DNA from: Acidobacteriota bacterium
Lineage (GTDB): Bacteria; Acidobacteriota; UBA4820; DSQY01
Length of the DNA: 58,701 nt
Direction of reading: 5' to 3'
Assembly (NCBI GenBank): GCA_021787565.1
Contig: JAJYLT010000023.1
Location: forward strand, 1-58,701
A program made the position numbers and the translations under genes. Under the pieces are notes generated by a model. The model worked only from the letters and a program-made list of their open reading frames with translations. It searched no databases and had not been told where the DNA came from. Shown here piece by piece: positions 1 through 13,250 of this stretch. Every line of letters begins with the position of its first letter. Positions within the stretch are counted from its first letter, which is position 1.

Positions 1-103
1 GGATGCCCTTGACTATGAAGTCTCGGTCAACTCCGTACTCCTTCTTCGCCGTTGCGTCGCTGAGGGTTGCCCCCTTGCGATTCCACTCACCGTATTCCGC
101 CAT
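1..103 (-). CDS. Small cassette-encoded protein, N-terminal part (runs off the left edge)
   Basis: The frame starts with ATG at 103 and reads MAEYGEWNRKGATL, then a segment rich in Ala/Lys, then EYGVDRDFIVKGI up to the window edge. There is no stop in the 34 visible codons. The sequence resembles, from memory, a family of short (about 70 aa) proteins of unknown function often found in integron cassettes; the segment after residue 14 has the look of a helix-turn-helix of the excisionase/MerR type. It lies left of the first attC site and in the same orientation as the other cassette genes. The function is not known, and the 3' part is outside the window. Confidence 0.6.
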   Translation of the reverse strand, partial: MAEYGEWNRKGATLSDATAKKEYGVDRDFIVKGI

Positions 104-115
104 GTCCTATCTCTT

Positions 116-222
116 CGACCGAACGCCCGCGTTCAGCGGCCCGGGCAACCATGCTCGAACTTGTACAGCGCCTAGCGAATCTGCACATGCGCGGACCGGT
201 CCGCTGCAACGCGTGGTTAGGG
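116..222 (-). repeat. attC site 1 (degenerate core)
   Basis: An imperfect palindrome whose arms pair GCGTTCAGCGG with CCGCTGCAACGC, ending in GTTAG at 216-220. The left core reads CCGAAC where the other sites have CCTAAC, so the R' core on the minus strand is altered. It separates the partial cassette at 1-103 from the cassette gene at 249-1073. Confidence 0.75.
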
Positions 223-248
223 GGCTAATTGCAATAGGCGAGCCTATG

Positions 249-1073
249 TCAGTAAGTAGCATCTACTTCAACATCCTCTTGGCGAATAACGACATGGAGA
301 GGGTCCTTGACGGAAATGTTGATGTTCGCTTGAATCGGGTAAAGACGGGAGAACTGCACGCCGTTGCCCCTATCCCAATCCCCGTCACTGCCATACTGAT
401 GCTTAACCTCCACTTGGCCAGAAATATTCAGATATATAGCTGCTTCGTCAATGGCCTCGACCGTTATGTCGTCTACACCTACGTCTTCAACCCAGTAGTG
501 TGTAGCTAACGTGTCTATCTGTGGAATCACGTCTGAGATTAAGGCCTCGAAAACGCTTTCCGAAACTCTCTCTTCATAAGCTGACGTGATGTCGTGGCGG
601 AAGTCATGGACCGTTTCCAAGAAACTACGGAGGGCCTCAAGAGTGCTCAGCACCATTGAATCTCCGTCATTCGCAGACACATGGAATGTCTCCTCCTCGA
701 TGTGGGTATACTTGCTGAGACGATCAATTGCCTCTCTTAGCTTGTTCGAGCCCGAGCCCAGGTCAATTCCAAGTTCCTGCCTAACGAAGTCATCACTCAA
801 GCCGCCTTTTATCGCATAAAGCATTCGTTGGCGGCGAGAAATACCATTGTTCTCTTGAGTTTCCTTCTTGTACCACTGACACTTAAGGATGGCCTCGTTA
901 GGTGCAAGGCGTGCCAGAATATGCCTTGTCAACTCGCGAAGACCTAATGCAAAGGAATTGTAACGAATGGGGTTACCCTTGTTCTCCAGTTGGCTGAGTG
1001 AAGCGTGGAGCAGACCATGTTCAAGTGTTTTGGTCAGTTCTCGATCAATCTGCGCTACGATTCTCTGGAACAT
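249..1073 (-). CDS. Cassette protein resembling predicted pPIWI-associated nucleases
   Basis: A 274-residue protein encoded alone in a cassette between attC sites 1 and 2. It appears cytosolic: no signal peptide or membrane helix is seen. The pattern in the second half (RRQRMLYAIKGGLSDDFV, then HIEEETFHV, then DTLATHYWVEDVGVDDITV, then a beta-rich tail with GQVEV and QYGSDGDWDRGNG) matches, from memory, proteins annotated as predicted pPIWI-associating nuclease. That family name comes from gene-neighbourhood work on prokaryotic Argonaute-like systems, and no activity is established here. The N-terminal 110 residues are helical and not recognised. Base composition is clearly lower in G+C than the chromosomal genes beyond 4633, as expected for a mobile cassette. 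A role in defence is an inference only. Confidence 0.55.
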   Translation of the reverse strand: MFQRIVAQIDRELTKTLEHGLLHASLSQLENKGNPIRYNSFALGLRELTRHILARLAPNEAILKCQWYKKETQENNGISRRQRMLYAIKGGLSDDFVRQELGIDLGSGSNKLREAIDRLSKYTHIEEETFHVSANDGDSMVLSTLEALRSFLETVHDFRHDITSAYEERVSESVFEALISDVIPQIDTLATHYWVEDVGVDDITVEAIDEAAIYLNISGQVEVKHQYGSDGDWDRGNGVQFSRLYPIQANINISVKDPLHVVIRQEDVEVDATY

Positions 1074-1115
1074 TCCTGACCCCCTATGCTCCTATGTGAC
1101 GATTTCTGCGAAGCA

Positions 1116-1243
1116 CCCTAACGCCCGCGTTCAGCGGGCCGGGCAACCAACGTTCGAGATAAGAGAATGGTGCAGCGGACTACCCCAAAGGGCAAAGCGT
1201 GAAGCTGGGCCCTGTCCCGGTCCGCTGCACCGCATCGTTAGGC
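1116..1243 (-). repeat. attC site 2
   Basis: Left core CCCTAAC at 1116-1122, right core GTTAGGC at 1237-1243, inner arms GCGTTCAGCGGGCCGGGC and CCCGGTCCGCTGCACCGC. The stop codon of the gene at 1238 (TAA) is formed by the right core, a common arrangement in cassettes. Confidence 0.85.
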
Positions 1244-1735
1244 TCCTCCGCACTCTTCACCTGGCATGTTATAGAAGAATCGAAAGTGACCTTTTAGATG
1301 GGGTGCAGTGAAGCCTGAAGGGAGAGGCAACTCTCTACTAGATGTGCGGAGGGCATCGATGGCGGCTTGATCGAAGAACGAGCAGCCGGAAAAGTGCCCC
1401 ACTGTGATATCGGTAATGGTGCCGTCACCTAGCACAGTAAAACACAGTTCGACCCAGCCTCTAAACCCATGTGCCATGGCATGTTGCGGCACCTGCCAGT
1501 GGGACTGAACCACTATCTGCATCTCATGAGCATAGGGTCCAAGGTCGACGTGGGAACCGGCAGGTGCCTCAAGAGAAAAACACTTGCCTTCGACAGCTTG
1601 AGCGCAGGATGGATGAGGTTGCCTAACATAAGCGGCTTGATCCCCCGATGAAAGACAGTCGACCGCGTGATTGGTTTCTCGAGCGGTGCAGGCACATAGT
1701 GCAACAAGGAGCAGGATGAAGGTCGGCAACTTCAT
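1238..1735 (-). CDS. TonB C-terminal domain lipoprotein (cassette gene)
   Basis: A 165-residue protein. The N-terminus (MKLPTFILLLVALCACTARE) is a signal sequence with a plausible lipobox ending at the Cys of LCAC, so it is probably lipid-anchored. The C-terminal half has the TonB-C/energy-transducer pattern: GWVELCFTVLGDGTITDITV, then FDQAAIDALRTS, then a short basic strand. Such domains contact TonB-box proteins or act as stand-alone envelope proteins; no proline-rich TonB spacer or N-terminal anchor helix of true TonB is present. The ATG at 1735 is preferred because GAGAGG lies 8 bases upstream; a longer start at 1750 is possible. The stop lies within attC site 2. Confidence 0.7.
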   Translation of the reverse strand: MKLPTFILLLVALCACTARETNHAVDCLSSGDQAAYVRQPHPSCAQAVEGKCFSLEAPAGSHVDLGPYAHEMQIVVQSHWQVPQHAMAHGFRGWVELCFTVLGDGTITDITVGHFSGCSFFDQAAIDALRTSSRELPLPSGFTAPHLKGHFRFFYNMPGEECGGA

Positions 1736-1759
1736 ATTCGCGCCTCTCATGATAAAGGA

Positions 1760-1889
1760 GCCTAACGCGTGCGTTCACCGGACCGGGCAACCAAGGCTAA
1801 AGATGAACAAGCGGAGCAACGGACCTCCTACAAAGGGCACCAGTTGAAGCATAGGCGGCGAACCGGTCCGGTGCAACGCGTTGTTAGGT
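1760..1889 (-). repeat. attC site 3
   Basis: Left core GCCTAAC at 1760-1766 and right core GTTAGGT at 1883-1889, with arms GCGTTCACCGGACCGGGC and CCGGTCCGGTGCAACGC. The single base changes in the two arms relative to the other sites (CACCGG versus CAGCGG, and CCGGTGC versus CCGCTGC) are compensatory. This shows that the folded stem, not the sequence, is conserved. Confidence 0.85.
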
Positions 1890-1946
1890 TGCGCTTGTTT
1901 TGAGGAGGTCTTGTTGCGCCGGTTTGGGCGCCTTGAGACACGCGCT

Positions 1947-2183
1947 CTATGCGCTTTCAATACCGAATTCTGCCTTGTACTGAAGATATCTTGCCGAAAC
2001 CTCTTTCTCATGCCGGACTTCATCGTCATAGAAACCTATGAGGATCGATTTCAGTGCTGGCTCTTCACACAAGTCAACTGCCTTCTGGTACATTGCTTGC
2101 GCCGAACGCTCAGCTTCTATTGCTATCTTGAAGGTCGCAAACAACTCTCGTTCTTTGTCGGTCATCGCCTTTATTACCTGCAT
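1947..2183 (-). CDS. Short ferritin-like (rubrerythrin-type) two-helix protein, cassette gene
   Basis: A 78-residue protein with two predicted amphipathic helices. The first carries AIEAERSAQAMYQKA and the second IGFYDDEVRHEKEV; the Glu of the first and the ExxRH of the second match one half of a ferritin-like di-iron site. A single four-helix ferritin unit needs two such halves, so the product probably dimerises, as known for encapsulated ferritin-like proteins. The start at 2183 is chosen because GGAGG lies 6 bases upstream; an in-frame start at 2204 has no such site. It sits alone between attC sites 3 and 4. A role in oxidative stress or iron handling is inference. Confidence 0.6.
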   Translation of the reverse strand: MQVIKAMTDKERELFATFKIAIEAERSAQAMYQKAVDLCEEPALKSILIGFYDDEVRHEKEVSARYLQYKAEFGIESA

Positions 2184-2246
2184 GCTCCACCTCCAATAAC
2201 GCAACTCAGGCCGATTCCGCAGCTCGTGTAGTTATTATACCCCGCA

Positions 2247-2352
2247 ACCTAACGCCAGCGTTCAGCGGGCCGGGCAACTGCGTCCGAACCAGCACAACGC
2301 CTTGCGAATCATTGAACATGATGGACCGGTCCGCTGCAACGCGTTGTTAGGC
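2247..2352 (-). repeat. attC site 4
   Basis: Left core ACCTAAC at 2247-2253 and right core GTTAGGC at 2346-2352; arms GCGTTCAGCGGGCCGGGC and GGACCGGTCCGCTGCAACGC. The stop codon of the VOC gene at 2347 lies in the right core. Confidence 0.87.
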
Positions 2353-2715
2353 CTCGGGCTTGTGGCAGACCGCTTCGACGTTGTGACCATCAGGGCCGAT
2401 GACAAATGCGCCATAGTAATTTGCATGGTAGTGCGGACGGAGGCCTGGCGCCCCATTGTCTTTGCCCCCGGCTTCAAGAGCGGCCCGATAGAAGTCTTGG
2501 ACCTGTTTGCGGGTCTCAGCTGTGAAAGCCAGGTGTAACTGTGCGGGCTTCTCTGAGCTTTGATAGAGCCAAAGCGATGGCTTTCCTTTTGGCCCTATTC
2601 CAAGGCCGTACTCGCCTTCCATAACGACACCCACTCCGAGAGGCTCAAGGGCTCGCTGGAAAAACGATTTGCTCGCATCGTAGTTGGTAACGCCAAAGCC
2701 AATGTGATCGAACAT
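2347..2715 (-). CDS. VOC-fold protein (glyoxalase/bleomycin resistance/dioxygenase superfamily), cassette gene
   Basis: A 122-residue protein with the paired beta-alpha-beta-beta-beta units of the vicinal oxygen chelate fold. It begins MFDHIGFGVTNYDASKSFF, has a central LHLAF strand and ends with a DGHNVEAVCH segment. The His near the N-terminus, the His of LHLAF and the Glu of NVEAV are the positions that usually bind metal. The substrate cannot be told from sequence; family members include glyoxalases, antibiotic-binding proteins and dioxygenases. AAGGAG lies 7 bases before the ATG at 2715. The single-gene cassette ends within attC site 4. Confidence 0.8.
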   Translation of the reverse strand: MFDHIGFGVTNYDASKSFFQRALEPLGVGVVMEGEYGLGIGPKGKPSLWLYQSSEKPAQLHLAFTAETRKQVQDFYRAALEAGGKDNGAPGLRPHYHANYYGAFVIGPDGHNVEAVCHKPEA

Positions 2716-2754
2716 GGGACTCTCCTTGTGAAAACGATGTGAGGTGAGTGCGAG

Positions 2755-2860
2755 GCCTAACGCCGGCGTTCAGCGGCCGGGCAACTGCGCGCTCAACCCT
2801 GCACGGCGCTTAGCGGACCTGCAAACGCGCGGACCGGTCCGCTGCAACGCGTGGTTAGGG
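2755..2860 (-). repeat. attC site 5
   Basis: Left core GCCTAAC at 2755-2761 and right core GTTAGGG at 2854-2860, with arms GCGTTCAGCGGCCGGGC and GGACCGGTCCGCTGCAACGC. This is the last site of the family that can be folded with confidence in the window. Confidence 0.85.
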
Positions 2861-3184
2861 GTTTCTCTTGGACTTGACCGCACCGTGCAACACGACTTGA
2901 GGTGAGCAAGACTACCGCCGGCCTGTGCCGGCCATTGCGGGGAGCATCGGGACATGGCGTGCTCAAAGCCCCGGTGCGGAGAGCCTGCACAAGCCTCGCG
3001 GCGAAGGGCCACCCTAGATGCGGGCGGAGGTGAAGCTGAGCCACGACCGGCTTTGTGAGCACCCTGCCGCCGCAGAACGTTGCCGCCGCACCTGCACGTG
3101 CCCACGCGGGCGGATGACCCGCCGTTTTGCACCGCACGCCTTGCCCCCCTTGAATGTTCCTTCAACCTTTTCACCAGCAATGGC
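2861..3184. other. Cassette-sized segment with no convincing gene
   Basis: This stretch lies between attC site 5 and a further CCCTAAC core at 3185-3191, so it has the size and flanks of a cassette. An open frame on the minus strand starts at 3180 but runs through the attC site and gives a low-complexity Arg/Gly/Ser-rich product. The alternative frames are no better. It may be a non-coding or decayed cassette. Confidence 0.4.
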
Positions 3185-3340
3185 CCCTAACGCGCATTAT
3201 GCGTCTCGCGACGGCAAGTACGACAGGGTGGTGTCGTATAACACATCTTCATGGGAACCCCCGCTATCCACAAACTCCTTGTAGCACACACCGATAAACG
3301 TGTCCACATCTCCGACGGCGCCGTGTTATGCGACATGCCC
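3185..3340. repeat. Right boundary of the cassette array: isolated core site and inverted repeat
   Basis: CCCTAAC at 3185-3191 (GTTAGGG on the minus strand, preceded by GCGC) looks like an R' core, but no matching arm of the attC family follows. About 40 bases further, GTGTCGTATAACAC (near 3232) and GTGTTATGCGACA (near 3326) form an inverted repeat around about 80 bases. It could be a decayed attC of another family, an attI remnant or an unrelated hairpin; the inner arms do not pair well. Confidence 0.35.
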
Positions 3341-3594
3341 TTGTCGCAAAGCATGATCAGCCCCTGTCGAAGGGGCCGAGCAAGCCGGCGGTGCCGGTGG
3401 GCGCCCGGCCGGTCTGGAGGCATCGCGACCCGAAGGTCGCTCCCGCATTGCCATCCGCCTTCCGTCCTTGCTTCCAAGCCCTCCCTCGCCCTACTCGCGG
3501 ACTCACCTACTCACCTACTCACCCTTCTTCCTCCGTGCTCCCCGTGTTCTCCGTGGTGAGGTCTTTCCTTTTCCCTGTCTCCCTACGACCTCCC

Positions 3595-3655
3595 AAGGCC
3601 TCCATACGCCCTCATCACCTCATCTCCTCATCCCCTCATCTCGCCCCCGAAGGCC
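3595..3655. repeat. Pyrimidine-rich direct repeat, copy 1
   Basis: About 60 bases beginning AAGGCCTCCATACGCC and continuing with tandem TCATC/TCCTC units, ending near CCCGAAGGCC. A near-identical copy is at 3860-3921. The region 3341-4632 has no supported gene; open frames there encode only Pro/Ser/Leu low-complexity products of these repeats. Confidence 0.8.
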
Positions 3656-3685
3656 CCCCCCCTCGCCCTCCTCACTTCCTCACTC

Positions 3686-3830
3686 CGTGCCTACATGAGT
3701 TGTGGGTCATCCTGAAGTCTCCCTCGAAGCTTCTCCCCTGAAGGATCTCGGGCAACGGCCCTGCACGTCCGGCGATTGAGATCCTTCGAAAGCACTCCCT
3801 CGAAGCAGCCCTCAGGATGACCGGGACCGG
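3686..3830. repeat. Hairpin element, copy 1
   Basis: About 145 bases with nested inverted repeats: outer arms GGGTCATCCTGA and TCAGGATGACC, inner arms GAAGGATCTC and GAGATCCTTC, around a short GC-rich loop. A second copy with scattered changes lies at 3965-4110. The structure resembles the short palindromic repetitive elements (REP/MITE-like) with TCATCCTGA ends found in many bacterial genomes. No coding capacity. Confidence 0.8.
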
Positions 3831-3859
3831 AGCAGGGATGACCGGTCTTCCCTGCCCCG

Positions 3860-3921
3860 AAGGCCTCCATACGCCCTCATCACCTCATCTCCTCATCCCC
3901 TCATCTCCTCCCCCGAAGGCC
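3860..3921. repeat. Pyrimidine-rich direct repeat, copy 2
   Basis: Second copy of the 60-base unit at 3595, identical over most of its length. With the hairpin copies it makes a composite tandem duplication of about 270 bases. Confidence 0.8.
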
Positions 3922-3964
3922 TGCCCGCGCCCTACTCACGGACTCACCTCATCACCTATTCAAC

Positions 3965-4110
3965 CCGTGCCCACATGAGGTGCGGGTCATCCTGAAGACT
4001 CCTTCGAAGCTTCTCCCCTGAAGGATCTCGGGCAACGGCCCTGCACGTCCGGCGGCAGAGATCCTTCGGGAGTACTCCCTCGAAGCAGCCCTCAGGATGA
4101 CCGGGATCGG
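3965..4110. repeat. Hairpin element, copy 2
   Basis: Second copy of the nested inverted-repeat element at 3686-3830. Differences between copies (for example GATTGAG versus GCAGAG next to the inner arm) fall mainly in loops, while the arms are kept. Confidence 0.8.
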
Positions 4111-4498
4111 CGCCGGGATGCGCGCGCTTTGCCGCCTTCGAAGGTCGCCCCTCACCCTCATCACCTACTCACGGACTTACCTCATGACCTTCTCATCTCG
4201 CCCCCGAAGGCCTCCCCTCGCCCTCCTCACTTCCTCACTTCCTCACTTCCTCACCTCATCACCTACTCATCTCATCGCCTCATCGCCCTCTCACCCTTTC
4301 CCCTCCGTGCTCTCCGCGCTCTCCGTGGTGACTCATCGCGTCTCTCCTCCGTCTAAGATAGCACCGCGAGTCCCCCGCGCCACCTGAAGCTCCGCGGAGA
4401 GCTGCCCGGCGACTCTCGCACGGGCCCGAACGGTCTCCCGCCGAGCGGCGCACCGGTGCGTCGGAGCGGAGCCGCGCACTTGGGCGGGACCCCCGCCA

Positions 4499-5250: not shown

Positions 5251-5290
5251 GGCCGCCTCTCTGGACGCGACGATACCTTCCTTTCCTGTG

Positions 5291-5322
5291 CGGGGCCGGG
5301 GTTACCCGGCCCCTATTTTTCT
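5291..5322 (+). terminator. Rho-independent terminator of the Cys-rich protein gene
   Basis: Stem GGGGCCGGG/CCCGGCCCC with loop GTTA, followed by TATTTTT, about 40 bases after the stop at 5250. The TAG stop of the convergent minus-strand regulator lies at 5313-5315, just beyond the stem. Confidence 0.85.
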
Positions 5323-6017
5323 TCGAGCCCCGGCGCCTGCACGTCGGCAGGGGCGATGAGCCCGCGACCGACGGCCCACAGGATGGCCTCGGCCCGGTTG
5401 GCCACGCCGATCTTCTGGAAGAGGTGGCGGGTGTGGCTCTTGACGGTGTTGCGGCTGACCTCGAGGGCTTGGGCGATCTGGCCGGGGGCGAGCCCCCTCG
5501 CGATGTGGATCAGGATCTCCCGCTCTCGCCGGGTGAGCGCCTCAAGTTCATCGGAGGGGGCGGCCGCCATGGCCAGGTCCAGCTCACGGTGGCCCGACGC
5601 GATCCGGCGCACCCGCTCCTGGTCCAGGAGATTCTCGCCCGCGGCCACCCTCCGGACGACGCCGAGGAGCTCCTGGCCGTCGGAGCCCTTCAGGAGGTAG
5701 GCCGAGGCGCCGGCGGCCATGGCCGCCCGTACGTAGTCCTCGTCCGCATAGCTGGTGAACAGGACGGCGCGGGTGCCAGGGCTCTTGGCGCGGATGGCCC
5801 TCAGGGCTTGCAGTCCACCCAGGTTGGGCATCCGGACGTCCAGGACCACCACGTCCGGCTTGAGCAGCACCGCGGCCGCCAGCAGATCCCTCCCGTCGGC
5901 CGCCTCCGCCACCACCTCAAGTTCCTCGGAGGATAGGGCTGCGCGAATTCCCTGCCTGACGACGGGGTGGTCGTCGGCGATGAGAACGCGAATCACCCGA
6001 ACGGCCGTCCTCTCCAT
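5313..6017 (-). CDS. NarL/LuxR-type response regulator
   Basis: A 234-residue two-domain regulator. Residues 8-125 form the receiver: IADDH acidic pair, phospho-acceptor Asp in VVLDVRMP, the switch Thr in LFTSYA and the Lys in YLLKGS. Residues 165-225 form the GerE/LuxR helix-turn-helix: LTRREREIL, then GQIAQALEVSRNTVKSHTRHLFQKIGV. It should bind DNA as a dimer once phosphorylated. The partner is the kinase ending 63 bases upstream (6081-7757), in the same direction. The target genes cannot be told. The stop codon abuts the hairpin of the convergent terminator. Confidence 0.92.
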   Translation of the reverse strand: MERTAVRVIRVLIADDHPVVRQGIRAALSSEELEVVAEAADGRDLLAAAVLLKPDVVVLDVRMPNLGGLQALRAIRAKSPGTRAVLFTSYADEDYVRAAMAAGASAYLLKGSDGQELLGVVRRVAAGENLLDQERVRRIASGHRELDLAMAAAPSDELEALTRREREILIHIARGLAPGQIAQALEVSRNTVKSHTRHLFQKIGVANRAEAILWAVGRGLIAPADVQAPGLEEK

Positions 6018-6080
6018 GGCATGGCTTCCATCGCGGCGAGCCCGTTGTCTTCTCCCCGAGAAGAGGTGGGTGCCTGGGGA

Positions 6081-7757
6081 TCAGGAACCGTGGCCGCTGC
6101 TTCTGCTCCATGTTAGCACGACGCGGGTCCCGCCGCCTCCAGGCCTGCTGCGAATGTCAAGGGAGGCCCCGATGAGCAGCGCCCTCTCGCGCATGCCCTC
6201 CAGCCCGAAGTGCCCGGGGGCAATGCGTTCGTCGGGATCGAAGCCCCTCCCGCCATCCTCTACCGACAGGGTGAGGCCTTCCCCGTCGGCCTCCAAACGC
6301 ACCTCGATTTCTCGCCCGCCTCCGTGCTTGAGCGCGTTCTGGACCGCCTCCTGGGCGATCCGAAAGACGGCCAGCGACACCTCCTGCGGGAGGGCGGCCA
6401 GAAGATCTTCGCCGGAGACCAGGAAGCGCGCGCCCGAAGGAACCGCCGAGTCGAGCTGGTGGCGCAGCGCCCCCACCAACCCCTGTTCCACCAGCTCGGG
6501 CGGGCGGAGTAGGGTGATGATGTGCCGGCACTTGCGGGCCGCCTCCGAAAGGGACTGGCGGCCCTGCCTCAAGGCACGCCGCGCCGGGTCGGGCTCCCCG
6601 CGGCCCCAGGCGTTCTCGGCCCCCACCACGAACATCTCCGCGGCCGCCAACAGTTGGGAGAGATCGTCGTGCAGCTCCCGCGCGATGGTTCGCCTCTCCT
6701 CCTCCTGAGCCGTCAGCAGCCTGCGGACCATCTCCTGCAGCCTGGAGGCCAGCGCGTCCACCAGCGCCTGCTGCCGGCGTGTCCACGCGAGATACCGCCA
6801 GGCGGCCATGAGGAGGGTGGAGAGCAGGGCCGATCCCCAAACCAGGAAGGCCGTGAGCGGCATGGTGGAAAGCACCTCGCGGCGTTGGATGGTGGCCAGC
6901 AGGTGCCATCCGAAGAGGCCGTTGTACTGGGTGCCAAATAGCACCCGTTCTCCCTTTGCGTTCATGGCCTCGCCCGTGCGTGTGGTCGAGCTCAGGGCGT
7001 TCTCCCAGAGCGCCTGACCGGGACCGGCTTGGCTGGGGTCCACCGGTTGAGGCCCCTCCTTCGGGGAGACGTTCATGATCATCGCCTTCTCCCCCACGGG
7101 CACCAGGAGAAGAGTTCTCTCCGTCTTGTAGGAGCGCAGATTCATGGCGGTGATCCAGTAGAGGGTCTTCCAGGGATTCATGGCGACGACGAAATAGACG
7201 GGGGCCCCGGGCACCGTCGAATGCGGGGAGAGATTGGCCCCCACCAGAAGCCTCGGCCTTGTCTGGGCGGTCGGATCGAGCCAGATCGCCGGCCTCTCTT
7301 TATCCCATGCCTTCCGGATGGTCTCGGCGGGCACCGGCGGGCCGGGCTGCCCTACCGTGGAGCCGGCGATCCAGCGGCCCGAATCATCCATGAAGCCGGC
7401 GCCCAGGTAACCCCGCTCCTTCACCCAGCTCTCCAGGGCGAGGCGGCTCGCTTGCGCCTCTGCCGGCGACAGCCCATCCCATTGCCACGCCCGCCCTCGT
7501 GCGGCCTGAAGGCCCGGCAGGGAGAGGGCCGCCGCGGCCCGGTCCTCGAGGCGCCCTATCCAGATATAGGTGAGGAGATTCTGGTAGTAGAGCTGCAAGT
7601 GCAGGTAGGACCGCGCCCTCTCCTCGAGCGTCCTTTCCTGATAGCGGTAGCCCCAGGTCCCCAGCGATGCGACCAGCACGAGCACGAGGAGCGGCAGCAG
7701 GAGGATGTCCCACTGCCGGTACCAGCGCCGGGCTCCGATGGTCCGAGAACCCTCCAT
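6081..7757 (-). CDS. Membrane sensor histidine kinase, NarL-type partner (HisKA_3)
   Basis: A 558-residue inner-membrane kinase. One membrane helix at about 17-37 and a second at about 300-322 enclose a 260-residue periplasmic domain that looks like a Cache-type sensor. The cytoplasmic part has a short linker, the HisKA_3 phospho-acceptor motif EERRTIARELHDDLSQLL (His at about 365) and an HATPase_c domain with DGGRGFD and a GLEGMRERA G-box, ending at about 553. This subclass pairs with NarL-type regulators, and one follows 63 bases downstream. GGGGAGGGGG lies just before the ATG at 7757. The ligand is not evident. Confidence 0.92.
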   Translation of the reverse strand: MEGSRTIGARRWYRQWDILLLPLLVLVLVASLGTWGYRYQERTLEERARSYLHLQLYYQNLLTYIWIGRLEDRAAAALSLPGLQAARGRAWQWDGLSPAEAQASRLALESWVKERGYLGAGFMDDSGRWIAGSTVGQPGPPVPAETIRKAWDKERPAIWLDPTAQTRPRLLVGANLSPHSTVPGAPVYFVVAMNPWKTLYWITAMNLRSYKTERTLLLVPVGEKAMIMNVSPKEGPQPVDPSQAGPGQALWENALSSTTRTGEAMNAKGERVLFGTQYNGLFGWHLLATIQRREVLSTMPLTAFLVWGSALLSTLLMAAWRYLAWTRRQQALVDALASRLQEMVRRLLTAQEEERRTIARELHDDLSQLLAAAEMFVVGAENAWGRGEPDPARRALRQGRQSLSEAARKCRHIITLLRPPELVEQGLVGALRHQLDSAVPSGARFLVSGEDLLAALPQEVSLAVFRIAQEAVQNALKHGGGREIEVRLEADGEGLTLSVEDGGRGFDPDERIAPGHFGLEGMRERALLIGASLDIRSRPGGGGTRVVLTWSRSSGHGS

Positions 7758-7782
7758 GCCCCCTCCCCGGATCGGTCGCCCC

Positions 7783-8766
7783 TCAATGCCCGGGGGCCTG
7801 GGCCATGATCTTCGCGAGCAGGGCCTTGTCCTTCGGCAGCAGGCCCACGCCGGGGAGGCGCGGGGTCAGCTCGGCCCAGCGGGGCTCCTTGGCGAAGACC
7901 TCCTTGAAGAGGGGCAGGGCCTTGTCGAGCTGGTGGTTGCTCGCCAGCGCGACGGCCTCCCAGTAGGGCAGCTCCATGACGGTGGGGGCGAGGCGGGCCG
8001 CTTCGGAGTACTCCTTGAGGGCGGCGTCGATCTTGCCCGCGGCCGTGAAGTCGTCGCCCGCGGAGGCGTGGTTGTAGGCTCGCTGGAGCGTCACGAGGCG
8101 GCGCAGCTCCTTGAGCGGCTGGGGGGAGTCCTCCACGCGCAGGTTGAAGATCGTGTCGGCCCACGGACGGCCCGTGGAGGCGCCCTTCACCACGATGATG
8201 GCGGCCGACTGCATGCCGCGGATGTCGCCGCCCGCGGCCTGGGCCGCGTCGAGGGCCGCCAGCATGCGGTCGGCGAGACCGCCCTTGGCCTCGCGGTAGG
8301 CCTTGGCCATGGCGGGCCAGACCCCGGCGTTCTCCATGAGGTTGGCCTCGACGCTGAACTGGTCGCCCGTCTCATCGCCCGCGGCGGGGATGCACTTGGA
8401 GCCGGTGAAGGCGGCCACGCGCCCCCGCGCGTCCACCATGGCCACCTGGCGCACCTCTCGGTCCTTATCGCCCGCCAGCAGCGCCTTCAGGGCCTCGGGC
8501 GCGCTCCTGCCCGCCCGCATGAGATCCAGGCCCAGCGGGCCGTAGGAGGGGTCCACGAAGGACTGCGTAGCCACGGCGCCCACGCCGGCCTCCGCCCACG
8601 GGACCACCGAGCCGACGGAGAACCAGTGGGACTGGACCGCCACGCCGATCTCGCCCGTGGCCGGATCCCTCGCCACGATGGAGAAGGTGAAGGCCCTCGG
8701 GACGGAGCCGAAGGCCGAGATGGTGCAGGCCGTCAAGAGAACCGCCAGAAGCCACGTCGCGCGCAT
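7783..8766 (-). CDS. DUF1028 family secreted protein with C-terminal TPR-like segment
   Basis: A 327-residue protein. An N-terminal signal peptide (MRATWLLAVLLTACTISAFG) is followed by the DUF1028 domain, an Ntn-hydrolase-like fold: FTFSIVARDPATGEIGVAVQSHW, then VGAVATQSFVDPSYGPLGLDLM, then DTIFNLRVED at about 200. Residues of about 235-300 look like one or two TPR repeats. The enzymatic activity of DUF1028 proteins is not settled. The start at 8766 is chosen because GGGAGGT lies 5 bases upstream and a signal peptide follows; a longer frame upstream is low-complexity. It may be co-transcribed with the kinase 25 bases downstream. Confidence 0.85.
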   Translation of the reverse strand: MRATWLLAVLLTACTISAFGSVPRAFTFSIVARDPATGEIGVAVQSHWFSVGSVVPWAEAGVGAVATQSFVDPSYGPLGLDLMRAGRSAPEALKALLAGDKDREVRQVAMVDARGRVAAFTGSKCIPAAGDETGDQFSVEANLMENAGVWPAMAKAYREAKGGLADRMLAALDAAQAAGGDIRGMQSAAIIVVKGASTGRPWADTIFNLRVEDSPQPLKELRRLVTLQRAYNHASAGDDFTAAGKIDAALKEYSEAARLAPTVMELPYWEAVALASNHQLDKALPLFKEVFAKEPRWAELTPRLPGVGLLPKDKALLAKIMAQAPGH

Positions 8767-8784
8767 GGGAACCTCCCTTGGAAA

Positions 8785-8812
8785 TAGTGAGGAGTGAGGA
8801 GTGAAAAGAGAG
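8785..8812. repeat. Tandem GAGTGAG-type heptamer tract
   Basis: Imperfect tandem GTGAGGA units between two genes. The same unit recurs at 28850, 43617, 46018 and 51106. Confidence 0.6.
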
Positions 8813-8881
8813 GAGAAAAGAAAAACATGGACCATCTCCTCCTGCGGAGCCGCCGCGGATCCGAAGAAAGGCCGAGGCGGC

Positions 8882-9190
8882 CTACCGTCCGGCCAGGATG
8901 GTCTCCACGGCCTCGACCTTGGCGGCCATGGTATAGGCCTTATCGCGGCGCTCGCTGACCTTGATCGAGGTGGAGAGGCGGGGCGCACCCATCTCGAAGA
9001 GGCGGTCCATGCAGCGCCGGACGAGCTCCATGACCTCCTCCCACTCGCCCTCGACGTTCGTGCCCATGCTGTGGAACTCGTGGCTCAGCCCGCTCTCGCG
9101 GATCAGGCGTACGGCCTCGGCCACGTAGGCGGAGAGCGAGACCCCGGCGCCGAGGGGGACGAACGAGACTTCGACGATCACGCGGGACAT
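8882..9190 (-). CDS. UPF0045/MTH1187 family protein (thiamine-binding type)
   Basis: A 102-residue cytosolic protein with a ferredoxin-like alpha/beta fold. It begins MSRVIVEVSFVPLGAGVSLSAYVAEAV and contains HEFHSMGTNVEGEWEEVMEL, the conserved core of the MTH1187/YkoF-related family. Family members form tetramers and some bind thiamine or hydroxymethylpyrimidine. The start at 9190 has AAGGAGGT 5 bases upstream. It lies 31 bases after the CNNM-type gene in the same direction, so it is probably part of that operon. Confidence 0.88.
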   Translation of the reverse strand: MSRVIVEVSFVPLGAGVSLSAYVAEAVRLIRESGLSHEFHSMGTNVEGEWEEVMELVRRCMDRLFEMGAPRLSTSIKVSERRDKAYTMAAKVEAVETILAGR

Positions 9191-9221
9191 GGGAACCTCC
9201 TTCCTCACGCTGCGGATGGCG

Positions 9222-10493
9222 CTAGGGTTCCCCTTCGGGGGGCGCCCCCGCTGCAGGCTTGGGCAGGCTCACGCGCACCCTGTGGATGCGCCGGCGGTCG
9301 GCCGAGAGGACCTCCACCTCCAGCCCGTGGATGGTGAATCGCTCTCCCGACCGGGGTATGGTGCCCAGAGCCGTGGAGATCCAGCCCGCCACCGAATCGT
9401 AGTCCCCCTCCGGGATGTCCACTCCGAGCCGCTCTGCCAGGTCGTAGACGGAGGCCCGCCCGAGGGTCTCGACGACGCCGGGCGCCCTTTCCACGAAGGG
9501 CTCCTCCTCCGCCTCGTCGTACTCCTGGATCTCGCCCACGATCTCCTCCAGGAGGTCCTCCGTGGTGACCAGGCCGTCCACGCCCCCGTATTCGTCCACC
9601 ACGATGGCCAGCTGGAGCTTCTGCTCCTGAAACTCCCGCAGGAGCTGGGAGATGGGCTTGTTCTCGGGGACGAAGGGGACCGGGCGGGCGAACCCGCGCA
9701 CGGGGCGGCCGCCCTCGCCCGCCAGGAGGGCGCCGAGGAAGTCCTTCAGGTAGGCCACCCCCACGATGTCGTCGATCTGCTCCTCGTAGAGGGGCAGCCG
9801 GGTGTGGCGGGCCTTGGCCAGGAGCTCGGCGGCGGCGGTGAGGGGGGTGTTGGCCTGGGCCGAGACCATGTCGGTGCGGGGGGTCATGACCTCCCGCGCC
9901 ACCGTGTCCCCGAACTCCATGACCCCGCGGATGAGGACCGAGTCCTCCTTTTCCAGGATGCCCTCGCTCTGCCCCACGTTGATCAGGGCCGAGATCTCCT
10001 CCTCCTCGTCCTCGTCGTCCATGCGTTCGCGCAGCACGTGGAGGCGCCTGGAGAGGAGCGAGGCAAGCGGTACGGTGACGATCCCGAACACCCACAGGAA
10101 GGCCCTCACCACCGGAAGGGTGGCGAGGAAGACCCTCTCCGGGTCGAGGGCGGCCACCGCCTGGGCCACGGAGGCCAGCACCAGGACAGAGAGGAGGCTG
10201 GCCACGAAGCCCCAGAGCAGGGGCTGGGCCGCCTTGCTCCGCACGAGGTCGGCCGTGAGCAGGAGGGTGGCGCCGATGCTCAGAACCAGCACCGAGAATT
10301 GCAGGGTGAGCAGGTAGGCGAGGCGGCGGCGCAGGTAGGCCCTCACCGCGGCCGCCGAGGGCGCCTCCTCCTCGGCCATCCGGTTCAGGGTCATGGCGGA
10401 GAGGCCGTTGAGGGCCGCCCGGACCAGGAGGAGCAGGAAGAGCAGGGCGAGCGCCGCCGCCAAGCCCAGCCGGATCATCAGGCGAGCCCCCAT
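9222..10493 (-). CDS. CNNM/CorC family membrane protein with CBS pair
   Basis: A 423-residue inner-membrane protein. N-terminal helices at about 7-27, 60-80, 90-115 and 125-147 form a CNNM-like transmembrane domain. Then follow a CBS pair (about 195-320; VMTPRTDMVSAQ, HTRLPLYEEQIDDIVGVAYLKD, then VVDEYGGVDGLVTTEDLLEEIVGEI) and a C-terminal CorC/HlyC domain (about 335-415). Relatives act in magnesium or cobalt efflux. The N-terminal domain is short and diverged from typical CNNM sequences. Its start overlaps the end of ybeY; an internal ATG at 10478 forms a TGATG overlap with the ybeY stop. Both starts allow coupled translation. Confidence 0.85.
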   Translation of the reverse strand: MGARLMIRLGLAAALALLFLLLLVRAALNGLSAMTLNRMAEEEAPSAAAVRAYLRRRLAYLLTLQFSVLVLSIGATLLLTADLVRSKAAQPLLWGFVASLLSVLVLASVAQAVAALDPERVFLATLPVVRAFLWVFGIVTVPLASLLSRRLHVLRERMDDEDEEEEISALINVGQSEGILEKEDSVLIRGVMEFGDTVAREVMTPRTDMVSAQANTPLTAAAELLAKARHTRLPLYEEQIDDIVGVAYLKDFLGALLAGEGGRPVRGFARPVPFVPENKPISQLLREFQEQKLQLAIVVDEYGGVDGLVTTEDLLEEIVGEIQEYDEAEEEPFVERAPGVVETLGRASVYDLAERLGVDIPEGDYDSVAGWISTALGTIPRSGERFTIHGLEVEVLSADRRRIHRVRVSLPKPAAGAPPEGEP

Positions 10494-10909
10494 TCCTTTC
10501 TCAGGCCGCGCTCCTTGCGGGCCATGGTCCCCCCGTCGGTCTCGTGGTCGAAGCCGGCCAGGTGAAGGATGCCGTGCAGGATGAGGCGCTTCAGTTCCGT
10601 CTCCAGGTCGAGCCCCGCCTCGAGCGCCGCCCTTTGGGCCACCGGGGCGGCGATGAGGATGTCTCCGAGGTAGGTCAGCCCGTCCGGGGAGAGCCCGCCG
10701 TCGGGGAAGGAGAGGACGTCGGTGGGGCCGGCCTTGTGGCGGAACTCGCGGTTGGCCTGGGTCATGAGGCGCACCCCGCAGATCTTGATCCCCACCTCGC
10801 CCTCGAGGTCCAGGCGCGCCAGCACGTCCAGGGCGAAGGCCACCAGAGCCTCCCTGGGAACGGGAGGGGTCCGCAGGCGGCTGTGGAGCCGGACCTCACG
10901 TCGCGTCAT
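10478..10909 (-). CDS. ybeY: Endoribonuclease YbeY (rRNA maturation factor)
   Basis: A 143-residue zinc-dependent RNase involved in 16S rRNA 3'-end maturation and ribosome quality control. The signature HGILHLAGFDHETD at about 111-124 supplies the three metal-binding His. TDVLSFPDGG at about 63-72 is also conserved. The gene overlaps the 7TM-HD gene by 14 bases and the CNNM gene by 16, and phoH lies upstream. PhoH-7TM-HD-YbeY-CorC is a widespread conserved order, which supports the call. Confidence 0.95.
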   Translation of the reverse strand: MTRREVRLHSRLRTPPVPREALVAFALDVLARLDLEGEVGIKICGVRLMTQANREFRHKAGPTDVLSFPDGGLSPDGLTYLGDILIAAPVAQRAALEAGLDLETELKRLILHGILHLAGFDHETDGGTMARKERGLRKEWGLA

Positions 10910-13250
10910 TCTTCTGCTCCTTGTCGAATGAGTAGCCGGGGTAGGAGATCCTCCGGCTGAAGACCCCCAGCAGCATCTGGAAGAAGGCCTCCTGGACCTT
11001 GGTCAGGTCATGGAAGGTCAGCGGGCACTCGGAGAGCTGGTCCTCCCCCACGACCCGGTTGGCGATCTCGGTGATGAGGGAGCGGAGCCGGTGGTGAGAG
11101 GGCTCCTTGAGCACCCTGGAGCCGGCCTCCACGCCGTCCGCGATCATCACGATGGCGGCCTCCCGGCTCTGGGGCTTAGGCCCCGGGTAGGAGAAGTCGG
11201 CCTCGTTGATGCTCTCCTTCTCCGGGTCCAGCATGGTCAGCGCCTTGTCCAGGAAGTAGCTGATCCGCCGCGTGCCGTGGTGCTGGGGGATGATGTCGAT
11301 GACCGCCTGGGGGAGCTTGTACTGGCGCCCCATGGCGATCCCCTCCTTGACGTGGGCGCCGACGATGAGAGCCGATATCCTCGGGGCCAGCTTGTCGTGG
11401 GGGTTCTGGCCCGGCACCTGGTTCTCCACGAAGTAGATGGGGTTCAGCATCTTGCCGATGTCGTGGTAGTAGCAGGCCACGCGGCAGTAGAGCGCGTTGG
11501 CGCCGATGGCGTTGGCGGCGGCCTCCGAGAGGGAGGCCATCATGAGGGAGTGGTTGTAGGTGCCCGGGGCGTCCAGCGCCAGCCGCCGGAGCAGGGGGTG
11601 GTTCATGTTGGAGAGCTCGAGGAGGCGGACCTCGGTCAGGATGCCGAAGAGGCTCTCGAAGATCGGCAGGAGCGTGGAGACCAGCATCATGGTGAGCGGG
11701 AAGGCCGATAGGAAGGCCAGCGTCAGGGGCGCCACCACCTTCACGGTGCTGTGCTCCATCTCCGGCGCCATGGCCAGAACGGCCAGCGCCAGCGGCACGT
11801 TGACCGCCGCCAGGAGGAGGCAGGCCTTCCACTGGGCCGTCCGCTGCGCCATGCGGCTGGCGGCGTAGATGGCCGTGAAGGAGGAGAGCACGCAGTAGAT
11901 CAGCATGCCGAAGTTGAGATCGGTGTAGATGCCGAAGAGCAGGCCGTACATCAGCGTATAGATGATCGCGATGTGCCGGTCCACCAGGAAGGTCATGAGC
12001 ATGGCGCCGGCCGCCGCCGGAATGGCGAACATGAGGAGCTCGGGCGAACCCAGGAGGGCCGACTTGCTGCCCTCGGCGGCCAGGCGCGCCAGCACCTGGA
12101 TGCCGAAACCGATGAGGATGAACAGGATGGTCACCTGGAGCGTGAGCACGAAGAGGTTCAGGTTAGGGCAGTGCTTCTTCCGGTAAGACTTCAGGTACAT
12201 GAAATTGAAGCCCATCAGCAGGAGGAGGAACAGCAGAAGGGCGCCCAGGAGGGAGAAGTTGAGGACGTTTCGGCTGGCCTCCTGGAAGGCCTGGATCTTC
12301 TGGAGCGCGCTCTCGTCGATCTTCTCCCCGGCCTTGACCAGCACCTGGCCCTTCCGGAGGAACACCACCAGGGGCTCCACCTGCTCGGCGGCCCGCTCCT
12401 CGCGCGCCGTGGTCTCCTGGCTGTTGTAGGTGAGGTTGGGGGCCAGGATGCCCCGGACGTAGTCTTCCAGGGCCCCGCGCAGTTGGGAGGGCAGGACCGT
12501 CAGGCTCTCCAGGATGGTGCCCGGGATCCGGCGGGCCTCGCTGAGGGTGATGATGTCGCTCGCCGCCGGGTTCTTCTGGGTCCACTCCACGCCCTTCCGG
12601 CGGATGTCCCGGATGCGGATGGAGTCGCTGCCCTGAAACTGCTCCCCGTCGGGCACGATCTTCTGCCCCTCCACCTGGGTGACCATGTCCTGCACGGTCT
12701 TTTCCAGGCTCGCGCTGAACCCCTCCTTCTCGAACTGTCGGAGGGCGAAGCGGGACAGGCTCCCGCCCAGGTCCTCGGAGAGGCGGTCCAGGAACTGCTC
12801 CTCCGCCTGGCTTCGCTGGTCCCGGGTCAGGTTGCCGGTGTGGAGGTACCGGTTCAGGTCCGCCAGGTTGGAGCGGGCCGCATGGAAGGCCGTGGCCACG
12901 CGGGCCACCATGTCCGCCGCCATGCCCGAATCCCAGTCGTAGACGGGCAGGACCTTGGCGCTGGTCTCCTGGCGCTTCTGGTTGGTGGCCACCTTGTCCA
13001 CGATCTGCAGGTCGAAGGGAGCGCGGATGTCCCGCGAGGACACCGAGCCGATCGGCAGGCTGGGGGGAGGCTGGACGCGGAACTGGCGCGTGAAGAGGGC
13101 GAAAGCCACGAGCAGGAAGGCCGCGGCCCAGAACCACTCGTTTTCGCGGAGGAAGTGGGCCAGGCGCTGCGCCACCCCGACCTTCACCTTTCCCCGATAC
13201 CGCGCGCGCTCCGCGGACACCTCGGGATCAGTGGGATCGTCGGGCGTCAT
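10896..13250 (-). CDS. 7TM-HD family membrane phosphohydrolase (PgpH-like)
   Basis: A 784-residue inner-membrane protein. A cytoplasmic N-terminus is followed by one helix (about 39-57) and an extracytoplasmic 7TMR-HDED domain (about 60-325). Seven closely spaced helices follow (about 330-530), then a cytoplasmic HD domain with YNHSLMMASLSEAAA, CYYHDIGKMLNP and IPQHHGT as metal ligands (about 565-740). Characterised relatives such as Listeria PgpH hydrolyse cyclic di-AMP. No diadenylate cyclase gene is in this window, so the substrate is an inference. The weak upstream region leaves the exact start less certain. Confidence 0.92.
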   Translation of the reverse strand: MTPDDPTDPEVSAERARYRGKVKVGVAQRLAHFLRENEWFWAAAFLLVAFALFTRQFRVQPPPSLPIGSVSSRDIRAPFDLQIVDKVATNQKRQETSAKVLPVYDWDSGMAADMVARVATAFHAARSNLADLNRYLHTGNLTRDQRSQAEEQFLDRLSEDLGGSLSRFALRQFEKEGFSASLEKTVQDMVTQVEGQKIVPDGEQFQGSDSIRIRDIRRKGVEWTQKNPAASDIITLSEARRIPGTILESLTVLPSQLRGALEDYVRGILAPNLTYNSQETTAREERAAEQVEPLVVFLRKGQVLVKAGEKIDESALQKIQAFQEASRNVLNFSLLGALLLFLLLLMGFNFMYLKSYRKKHCPNLNLFVLTLQVTILFILIGFGIQVLARLAAEGSKSALLGSPELLMFAIPAAAGAMLMTFLVDRHIAIIYTLMYGLLFGIYTDLNFGMLIYCVLSSFTAIYAASRMAQRTAQWKACLLLAAVNVPLALAVLAMAPEMEHSTVKVVAPLTLAFLSAFPLTMMLVSTLLPIFESLFGILTEVRLLELSNMNHPLLRRLALDAPGTYNHSLMMASLSEAAANAIGANALYCRVACYYHDIGKMLNPIYFVENQVPGQNPHDKLAPRISALIVGAHVKEGIAMGRQYKLPQAVIDIIPQHHGTRRISYFLDKALTMLDPEKESINEADFSYPGPKPQSREAAIVMIADGVEAGSRVLKEPSHHRLRSLITEIANRVVGEDQLSECPLTFHDLTKVQEAFFQMLLGVFSRRISYPGYSFDKEQKNDAT

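Follow-up and report, generated by a model that had tools for sequence, protein, structure and literature searches.

Cassette array and attC sites of the window

The stretch of DNA analyzed here, referred to as the window, comprises 58,701 nucleotides and equals the whole of contig C71 (GenBank JAJYLT010000023.1) in the genome of an Acidobacteriota bacterium, designated G000 (3.47 Mb, 77 contigs, 98% complete). An integron cassette array lies at its left end and includes five attC recombination sites and four cassette genes, all on the minus strand. A copy of the attI site stands at the head of this array, and no integrase gene (intI) adjoins it. The features are displayed in Table 1. Base 1 of the window is the contig end, so the assembly truncates the array on its left, distal side.

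A preliminary description of the window, made from the sequence alone, had recognized five palindromes as attC sites and had called for a check by covariance models. Rfam at its gathering thresholds gave no match in the whole window, and the sites were therefore tested with a purpose-built covariance model, R1, built on 11 attC sites that came from other contigs or from related genomes, none from the window. Exactly five attC sites were recovered in the window, all on the minus strand and at E-values from 4.3e-27 to 6.8e-12; the palindromes are thus real attC sites, since the model that finds all five was built without them. Nothing else scored below E 0.1 in the window except weaker plus-strand matches at the same positions, which occur because the sites are palindromic; the next match had an E-value of 0.13. 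As a positive control, R1 matched the attC sites beside annotated class 1 cassettes in three stretches (L122, L123 and L124), always on the cassette strand, and gave no match in a fourth class 1 integron stretch, L125.

The window sites display a two-box stem with extrahelical bases, and their top strand is the minus strand, which is also the strand of the cassette genes. The compensatory change that had been proposed for the arms of site 3 was borne out: of 18 aligned sites, 16 have G-C at stem columns 20/113 and 2, site 3 among them, have the swapped pair C-G. With at least two attC sites (here five) and no intI nearby, the array fits the definition of a CALIN (cluster of attC sites lacking integron-integrases).

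The four cassette open reading frames have a G+C of 0.465-0.553 against 0.669 for the backbone, in which none of 107 windows of 500 bp falls below 0.50. The low G+C and single direction noted for the cassettes earlier thus hold for all four. The product of the most distal of these genes, a predicted pPIWI-associating nuclease, also matches PADLOC Aga_Nuclease (E 5.7e-81), and its cassette carries no Argonaute gene. Small proteins resembling the TonB C-terminus are encoded by cassette genes in two G000 arrays (window 1238-1750 and L040:5622-6071, both minus strand).

Table 1. Features of the array and of the adjoining attI region in the window
Feature	Position	Strand	Evidence or remark
Start of next cassette	1..118	-	bases 1-127 same in C71 and C30
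attC site 1	118..223	-	R1 89.8 bits
Cassette gene, predicted pPIWI-associating nuclease, 274 aa	249..1073	-	PF18165 E 8.6e-34, PF18166 E 3.8e-28
attC site 2	1116..1244	-	R1 50.3 bits
Cassette gene, TonB C-terminus-like, 170 aa	1238..1750	-	PF03544 E 5.1e-7
attC site 3, compensatory stem change	1760..1890	-	R1 61.9 bits
Cassette gene, ferritin-like, 85 aa	1947..2204	-	PF00210 E 7.7e-5, below its cut-off
attC site 4	2247..2353	-	R1 104.5 bits, E 4.3e-27
Cassette gene, glyoxalase/VOC-like, 122 aa	2347..2715	-	PF00903 E 1.1e-6
attC site 5	2755..2861	-	R1 95.7 bits, E 1.2e-24
First cassette segment, ~330 bp, no convincing gene	2862..3190	-	G+C 0.651 over 2862-3188
Duplicated segment, attI plus upstream dispersed repeats	3186..4131	-	87% over 947 bp vs C30:621-1518
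attI copy B, type 1, crossover G at 3191 (G/TTAGG, minus strand)	3191..3356	-	homology to C44 attI
Inverted repeat TGTTATACGACA/TGTCGTA near crossover	3219..3243	-	candidate integrase-binding element
Candidate cassette promoter Pc, TGGACA-N17-TACAAG, extended -10 TGC	3278..3306	-	9/12 consensus matches
Inverted repeat GCGACAAGGGCATGTCGC, follows intI in linked copy	3330..3347	-	alignment of attI copies
Likely remnant of intI 3' end	3357..3383	-	LLGPFDRG* vs intact VLSPIDRG*, by eye

Copies of attI and the single integrase gene of the genome

According to the orientation of the sites, attI had been expected near position 3200, and attI copy B is found there; the remark that only repeats follow at this point is wrong, because the attI copy starts at 3191. 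A DNA search with window 2700-3700 showed that 3182-3382 is an 80% match to the stretch immediately after the intI gene of another contig, C44, and attI B shares 80% identity with the attI adjoining that gene over 197 nt. Cassettes could in principle have entered a random chromosomal target of the attG type and expanded there, a known route of CALIN formation (PMC12444791, PMC8618304). Such off-target insertion is very improbable here and is contradicted by the head of the array, which is a homologue of about 190 nt of an intI-linked attI and not a short random target.

The intI gene of C44 (97779-98717) is the sole integron integrase gene of G000 above the cut-off (TIGR02249, 473 bits against 265) and has an uninterrupted frame of 366 amino acids. 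The integrase family search of G000 found no intI on C71, including the more than 55 kb of chromosome on the upstream side of attI B. The earlier observation that no integrase is visible beside the array was thus upheld, and the search elsewhere in the genome that had been advised yielded one intI, that of C44. The array on C44 runs in the same direction as its intI and reaches the end of the contig.

Four type 1 attI sites exist in G000: A on C44 beside intI, B in the window, and C and D on the 6.7-kb contig C30. Only A has an intI; the other three, called orphans below, do not, and each shares about 80% identity with A across 197-201 nt. Window 3186-3647 matches the two places on C30 at 92% and 85%. 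All four copies can be aligned to GCGTTAGG and are divergent past it, so that similarity stops at the G/TTA crossover point. A different segment follows each copy, and then an attC. The first cassette holds a 158-amino-acid gene on C44 and apparently no gene in the window, and on C30 it holds a TonB-like gene at one attI copy and a gene without a family match at the other. Additionally, each of the three orphans carries a short stretch that resembles, by eye, the last codons of intI.

Several other observations concern these copies and their surroundings. An opposite-strand open frame starting MGTPAIH (window 3251-3313, plus strand) is present in all G000 attI copies and may be due to chance. 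Repeats present on many G000 contigs lie in window 3490-4330, namely a 190-nt repeat pair and dispersed repeats in which CTCATCACCTC is abundant. A hairpin resembling repetitive extragenic palindromic (REP) elements lies at window 3419-3443 (minus strand) and also upstream of orphan attI copies in the related genomes G001 and G005; its arms vary by species while their pairing is kept. Contig C77 of G000 bears a further array (L107:820-3111), with an attI of a second, divergent type and a cassette gene resembling patatin; its last attC is degenerate. C60:545 and C34:27221 were considered as further attI-headed arrays and rejected, having weak attC matches and no known attI type nearby.

C71, C30 and C44 each end within an array, and those of C71 and C30 finish in the same cassette, with 127 of 127 nt identical (window 1-127 and L040:1-127). 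The identical ends suggest recent cassette movement or duplication, and the length of 127 nt suggests an assembly k-mer of 127 combined with a repeated cassette. Three contigs ending in arrays and an exact shared end are also what would be seen if a single array with the C44 intI at its head had been broken into C71, C30 and C44, and draft genomes are known to contain arrays split in this way (PMC9024848). It can hardly be the case here. The C71 array begins at its own attI and its upstream chromosome matches a region of G001 at 90-96% identity; two more attI copies are present on C30; and joining the ends of C44 and C71 would give head-to-head arrays, because both arrays go from the chromosomal side to the contig end. 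The match to G001 covers window 5274-12600, and the array is therefore chromosomal; in an empty-site comparison, the orthologous G001 contig stops 168 bases past the matching stretch. Therefore, what was described at first as a non-proteobacterial integron array, with the stated orientation and no adjacent integrase, stands as such, while the view of a simply severed array without a visible attI does not: its own attI and more than 55 kb without intI beyond it mark a separate attI-headed platform and not a severed piece of C44.

Recurrence in related genomes and in Rhodanobacter

The GTDB family of G000 is represented by 9 genomes, all Aminicenantes relatives, and integrase-less attI copies were found in 6 of them (G000, G001, G004, G005, G007 and G008). 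Beyond type 1, the genome-wide search in the family covered the attI type of G008 and not those of G002, G003 and G004, so the counts for the latter three are lower bounds. A search of 149 genomes with the C44 attI gave matches in only 3: G000 with four copies, G001 of the same genus with three, and G005 with one, cut by a contig end. Each type 1 copy of G001 has a cassette, with a clear attC in two cases and a truncated attC in one. One of the G001 orphans, on C125 (L100:8516-8672), is ~97.5-97.7% identical to that of G005 on C218 (L102:1-157), although the two genomes belong to different genera; their upstream repeats are similar too, and transfer or contamination may account for this.

For the second attI type, G004 has one copy beside intI and another that is 96% identical to it over 181 nt and is preceded by a longer decayed intI 3' end, as judged by eye. 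Without intI this type is found in G001 (C80), G000 (C77) and G007 (two copies, one partial). The third type has six copies in G008, one beside intI and five without. Four of these orphans (C265, C315, C389 and C61) have an attC at most 0.7 kb downstream; the fifth, on C181, showed none but lies ~0.3 kb from a contig end. In 2 of the 4 G008 orphans that were aligned, the similarity begins at the repeat directly after the intI stop, and the G008 attI also contains a repeat resembling the inverted repeat at window 3219-3243. For the intI-linked attI sites of G002/G005 and of G003, no second copy was seen among the loci fetched.

The conservation of the sites was compared by ungapped pairwise identity in the 7 full type 1 copies (4 from G000, 3 from G001) and the 6 copies of G008. 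Mean identity among the type 1 copies reaches 0.90 over the last 30 nt ahead of the crossover, falls to 0.68 in the stretch 120-150 nt ahead of it and amounts to 0.23-0.26 more than 30 nt past it; the corresponding values in G008 are 0.93, 0.59 and 0.25-0.27. In all 13 copies of both attI types, the best sigma70-like pair of hexamers has N17 spacing and a -10 end exactly 87 nt from the crossover, a position that is identical in 7 of 7 type 1 copies. The element matches the consensus at 10 of 12 positions in G008, where 0-4 of 200 shuffles are as good, and for the candidate of the window 10 of 200 shuffles score equally well. We read this 87-nt element as a putative cassette promoter, Pc.

Two controls were taken outside the family. 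Another Acidobacteriota genus, g30, showed no extra attI in 8 intI-bearing genomes in a search with intI plus ~400 bases of flank at either end, a query within which the exact attI was not identified. Three genomes of the unrelated genus Rhodanobacter, chosen as the second control, revealed extra attI copies in 2 of the 3, and most of these adjoin cassettes and attC. One attI-like site of Rhodanobacter (L249:1818-1857) has no GCGTTAG end and is possibly unoccupied or degenerate. A Rhodanobacter attI pattern, allowing at most 3 mismatches, was found at 33 places in 21 of 45 genomes, with at least 2 places in 10 genomes, and the reversed pattern was absent from all 45. Among 30 such loci, a long intI match lies within 1.5 kb in 9, fragments in 3 and neither in 18. 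Two of these 18 stop at a contig end; in 15 of the remaining 16, L260 being the sole exception, attC-like motifs occur in the first 1.5 kb downstream. Linked and orphan attI sites are more similar within a genome (0.80 over 80 nt, 6 pairs) than between genomes (0.69, 156 pairs), an excess reached by 2 of 720 arrangements in an exact permutation test. A TTGAC(G/C) element recurs in Rhodanobacter closer to the crossover, no better than in shuffles. Some of the Rhodanobacter cases are isolates with long contigs.

Origin of the array and comparison with known systems

Taken together, the array of the window is probably an integrase-less daughter integron that arose by duplication and loss of intI, with the IntI of C44 probably serving it in trans. 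An intI-attI platform would have been duplicated inside the genome, after which the extra intI copy was lost, and the attI with its likely promoter would have been retained and copied further. Recombination at dispersed repeats may have been the copying route, because the upstream repeats are shared between the window and C30 over the duplicated segment. The single intact IntI would then insert and excise circular cassettes at attI B and at the two copies on C30. Duplication followed by loss of intI fits best, owing to the remnants resembling the intI end in G000 and G004 and the G008 similarity that starts from the intI stop.

The attI unit might also be a small mobile or repeat-borne element, spreading by itself or with the upstream repeats, and not left behind by loss of intI. 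The shared segments do contain genome-wide repeats, the REP-like hairpin with differing arms precedes orphans in G000, G001 and G005, the copies on G001:C125 and G005:C218 are 97.7% identical across genera, and the similarity of some G008 orphans begins directly after the intI stop. Such an element is rather unlikely, given the intI 3' remnant before the second attI of G004 and probably before the G000 orphans too; moreover, neither terminal inverted repeats nor target duplications came to light, though no systematic search for them was made.

The orphan arrays could also be dead relics, that is, decayed integrons in which cassette exchange has ended and which no integrase serves in trans, as in published proposals that regard CALINs as degraded integrons (PMC9024848, PMC8618304). 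The three type 1 copies of G001 without a detected intI, the single cassette in most orphan arrays of that genome and the degenerate attC and attI of some loci (e.g., L249) would agree with this. However, the crossover core and the element at -87 are conserved while adjacent positions diverge, the cassette differs from copy to copy, two arrays share a 127-nt stretch of one cassette without a mismatch, and G000 has an intact intI. Decay is consequently the less favored explanation, though a serious one.

Several points weigh against a daughter integron served in trans. The whole case is built from sequence, and contigs of these metagenome-assembled genomes may be chimeric. In G001, with three type 1 attI copies, no intI match reached E<=1e-60, and the recombinase-like matches that appeared were weak; the copies can therefore persist without a partner, unless the intI lies in a gap of this assembly (180 contigs, 97% complete), as it could. 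G005 has a type 1 orphan, but the attI of its own intI differs, and no clear orphan attI was seen in 3 of the 9 family genomes (G002, G003 and G006). The promoter-like element of type 1 is weak in each copy (8-9 of 12 in G000 and G001, with 9-76 of 200 shuffles as good). Finally, the likeness of attI sites within one Rhodanobacter genome could result from recent duplication or phylogeny, and not from co-evolution with IntI.

If the trans-served daughter integron is accepted, each platform would express its own first cassette, the one in the best-expressed position, and several platforms would place more cassettes next to a promoter. The chances seem about even for a multi-port integron of this kind, in which one integrase gene acts in trans on several dispersed attI-plus-promoter platforms, whose first positions are expressed together. 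Action of IntI in trans on CALINs has been given as possible (PMC12444791, PMC9668308).

Counts of CALINs (2,961) and of complete integrons (2,760) are similar (PMC9024848), and the origin of CALINs is debated. IntegronFinder seeks attI in class 1 only (PMC9024848), and orphan attI heads may therefore go unnoticed elsewhere. If the multi-port reading is true, such heads would account for a good part of catalogued CALINs, missed for want of attI searches outside class 1. If many CALINs do have orphan attI heads, they would be extra capture platforms, not debris, and the standard view, with a single integrase, a single attI and a single expressed first cassette, would be incomplete. The Rhodanobacter cases make the idea testable in culturable bacteria. 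In the accessible open literature on multiple or orphan attI sites and attI-headed CALINs, Salmonella genomic island 1 (SGI1) is the single precedent (PMC7056807), and multiple attI heads are otherwise not described in the portions examined. Nothing relevant to integrons of Aminicenantes appeared among the open-access matches listed.

Comparison with known systems indicates where the array differs. Like CALINs in general, it shows cassettes with several attC sites but lacks a nearby intI; however, published accounts treat CALINs as degraded integrons, as products of off-target insertion or as fragments left by rearrangement (PMC9024848, PMC8618304), whereas the window array is headed by a paralogue of an intI-linked attI. 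Chromosomal integrons of Xanthomonas with inactivated intI likewise show attI and cassettes that outlast a working integrase, but in that case intI was lost from the original locus (ilvD), and attI is not mentioned in the available part of the source for the extra CALINs at seven other loci (PMC12444791). The Delta-attI cassettes of class 1 and class 2 integrons also contain attI sequence displaced from intI; these are short fragments downstream of cassette genes, replacing attC (PMC12901181), whereas the sites described here are complete and stand at array heads. The complex class 1 integron of SGI1 likewise gives one genome two attI sites, each with its own cassette, but its second attI is part of a single complex integron of 15 kb that a mobile island carries (PMC7056807). 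In the present case, the attI copies are scattered over the chromosome, number at least three per genome and recur in several species.

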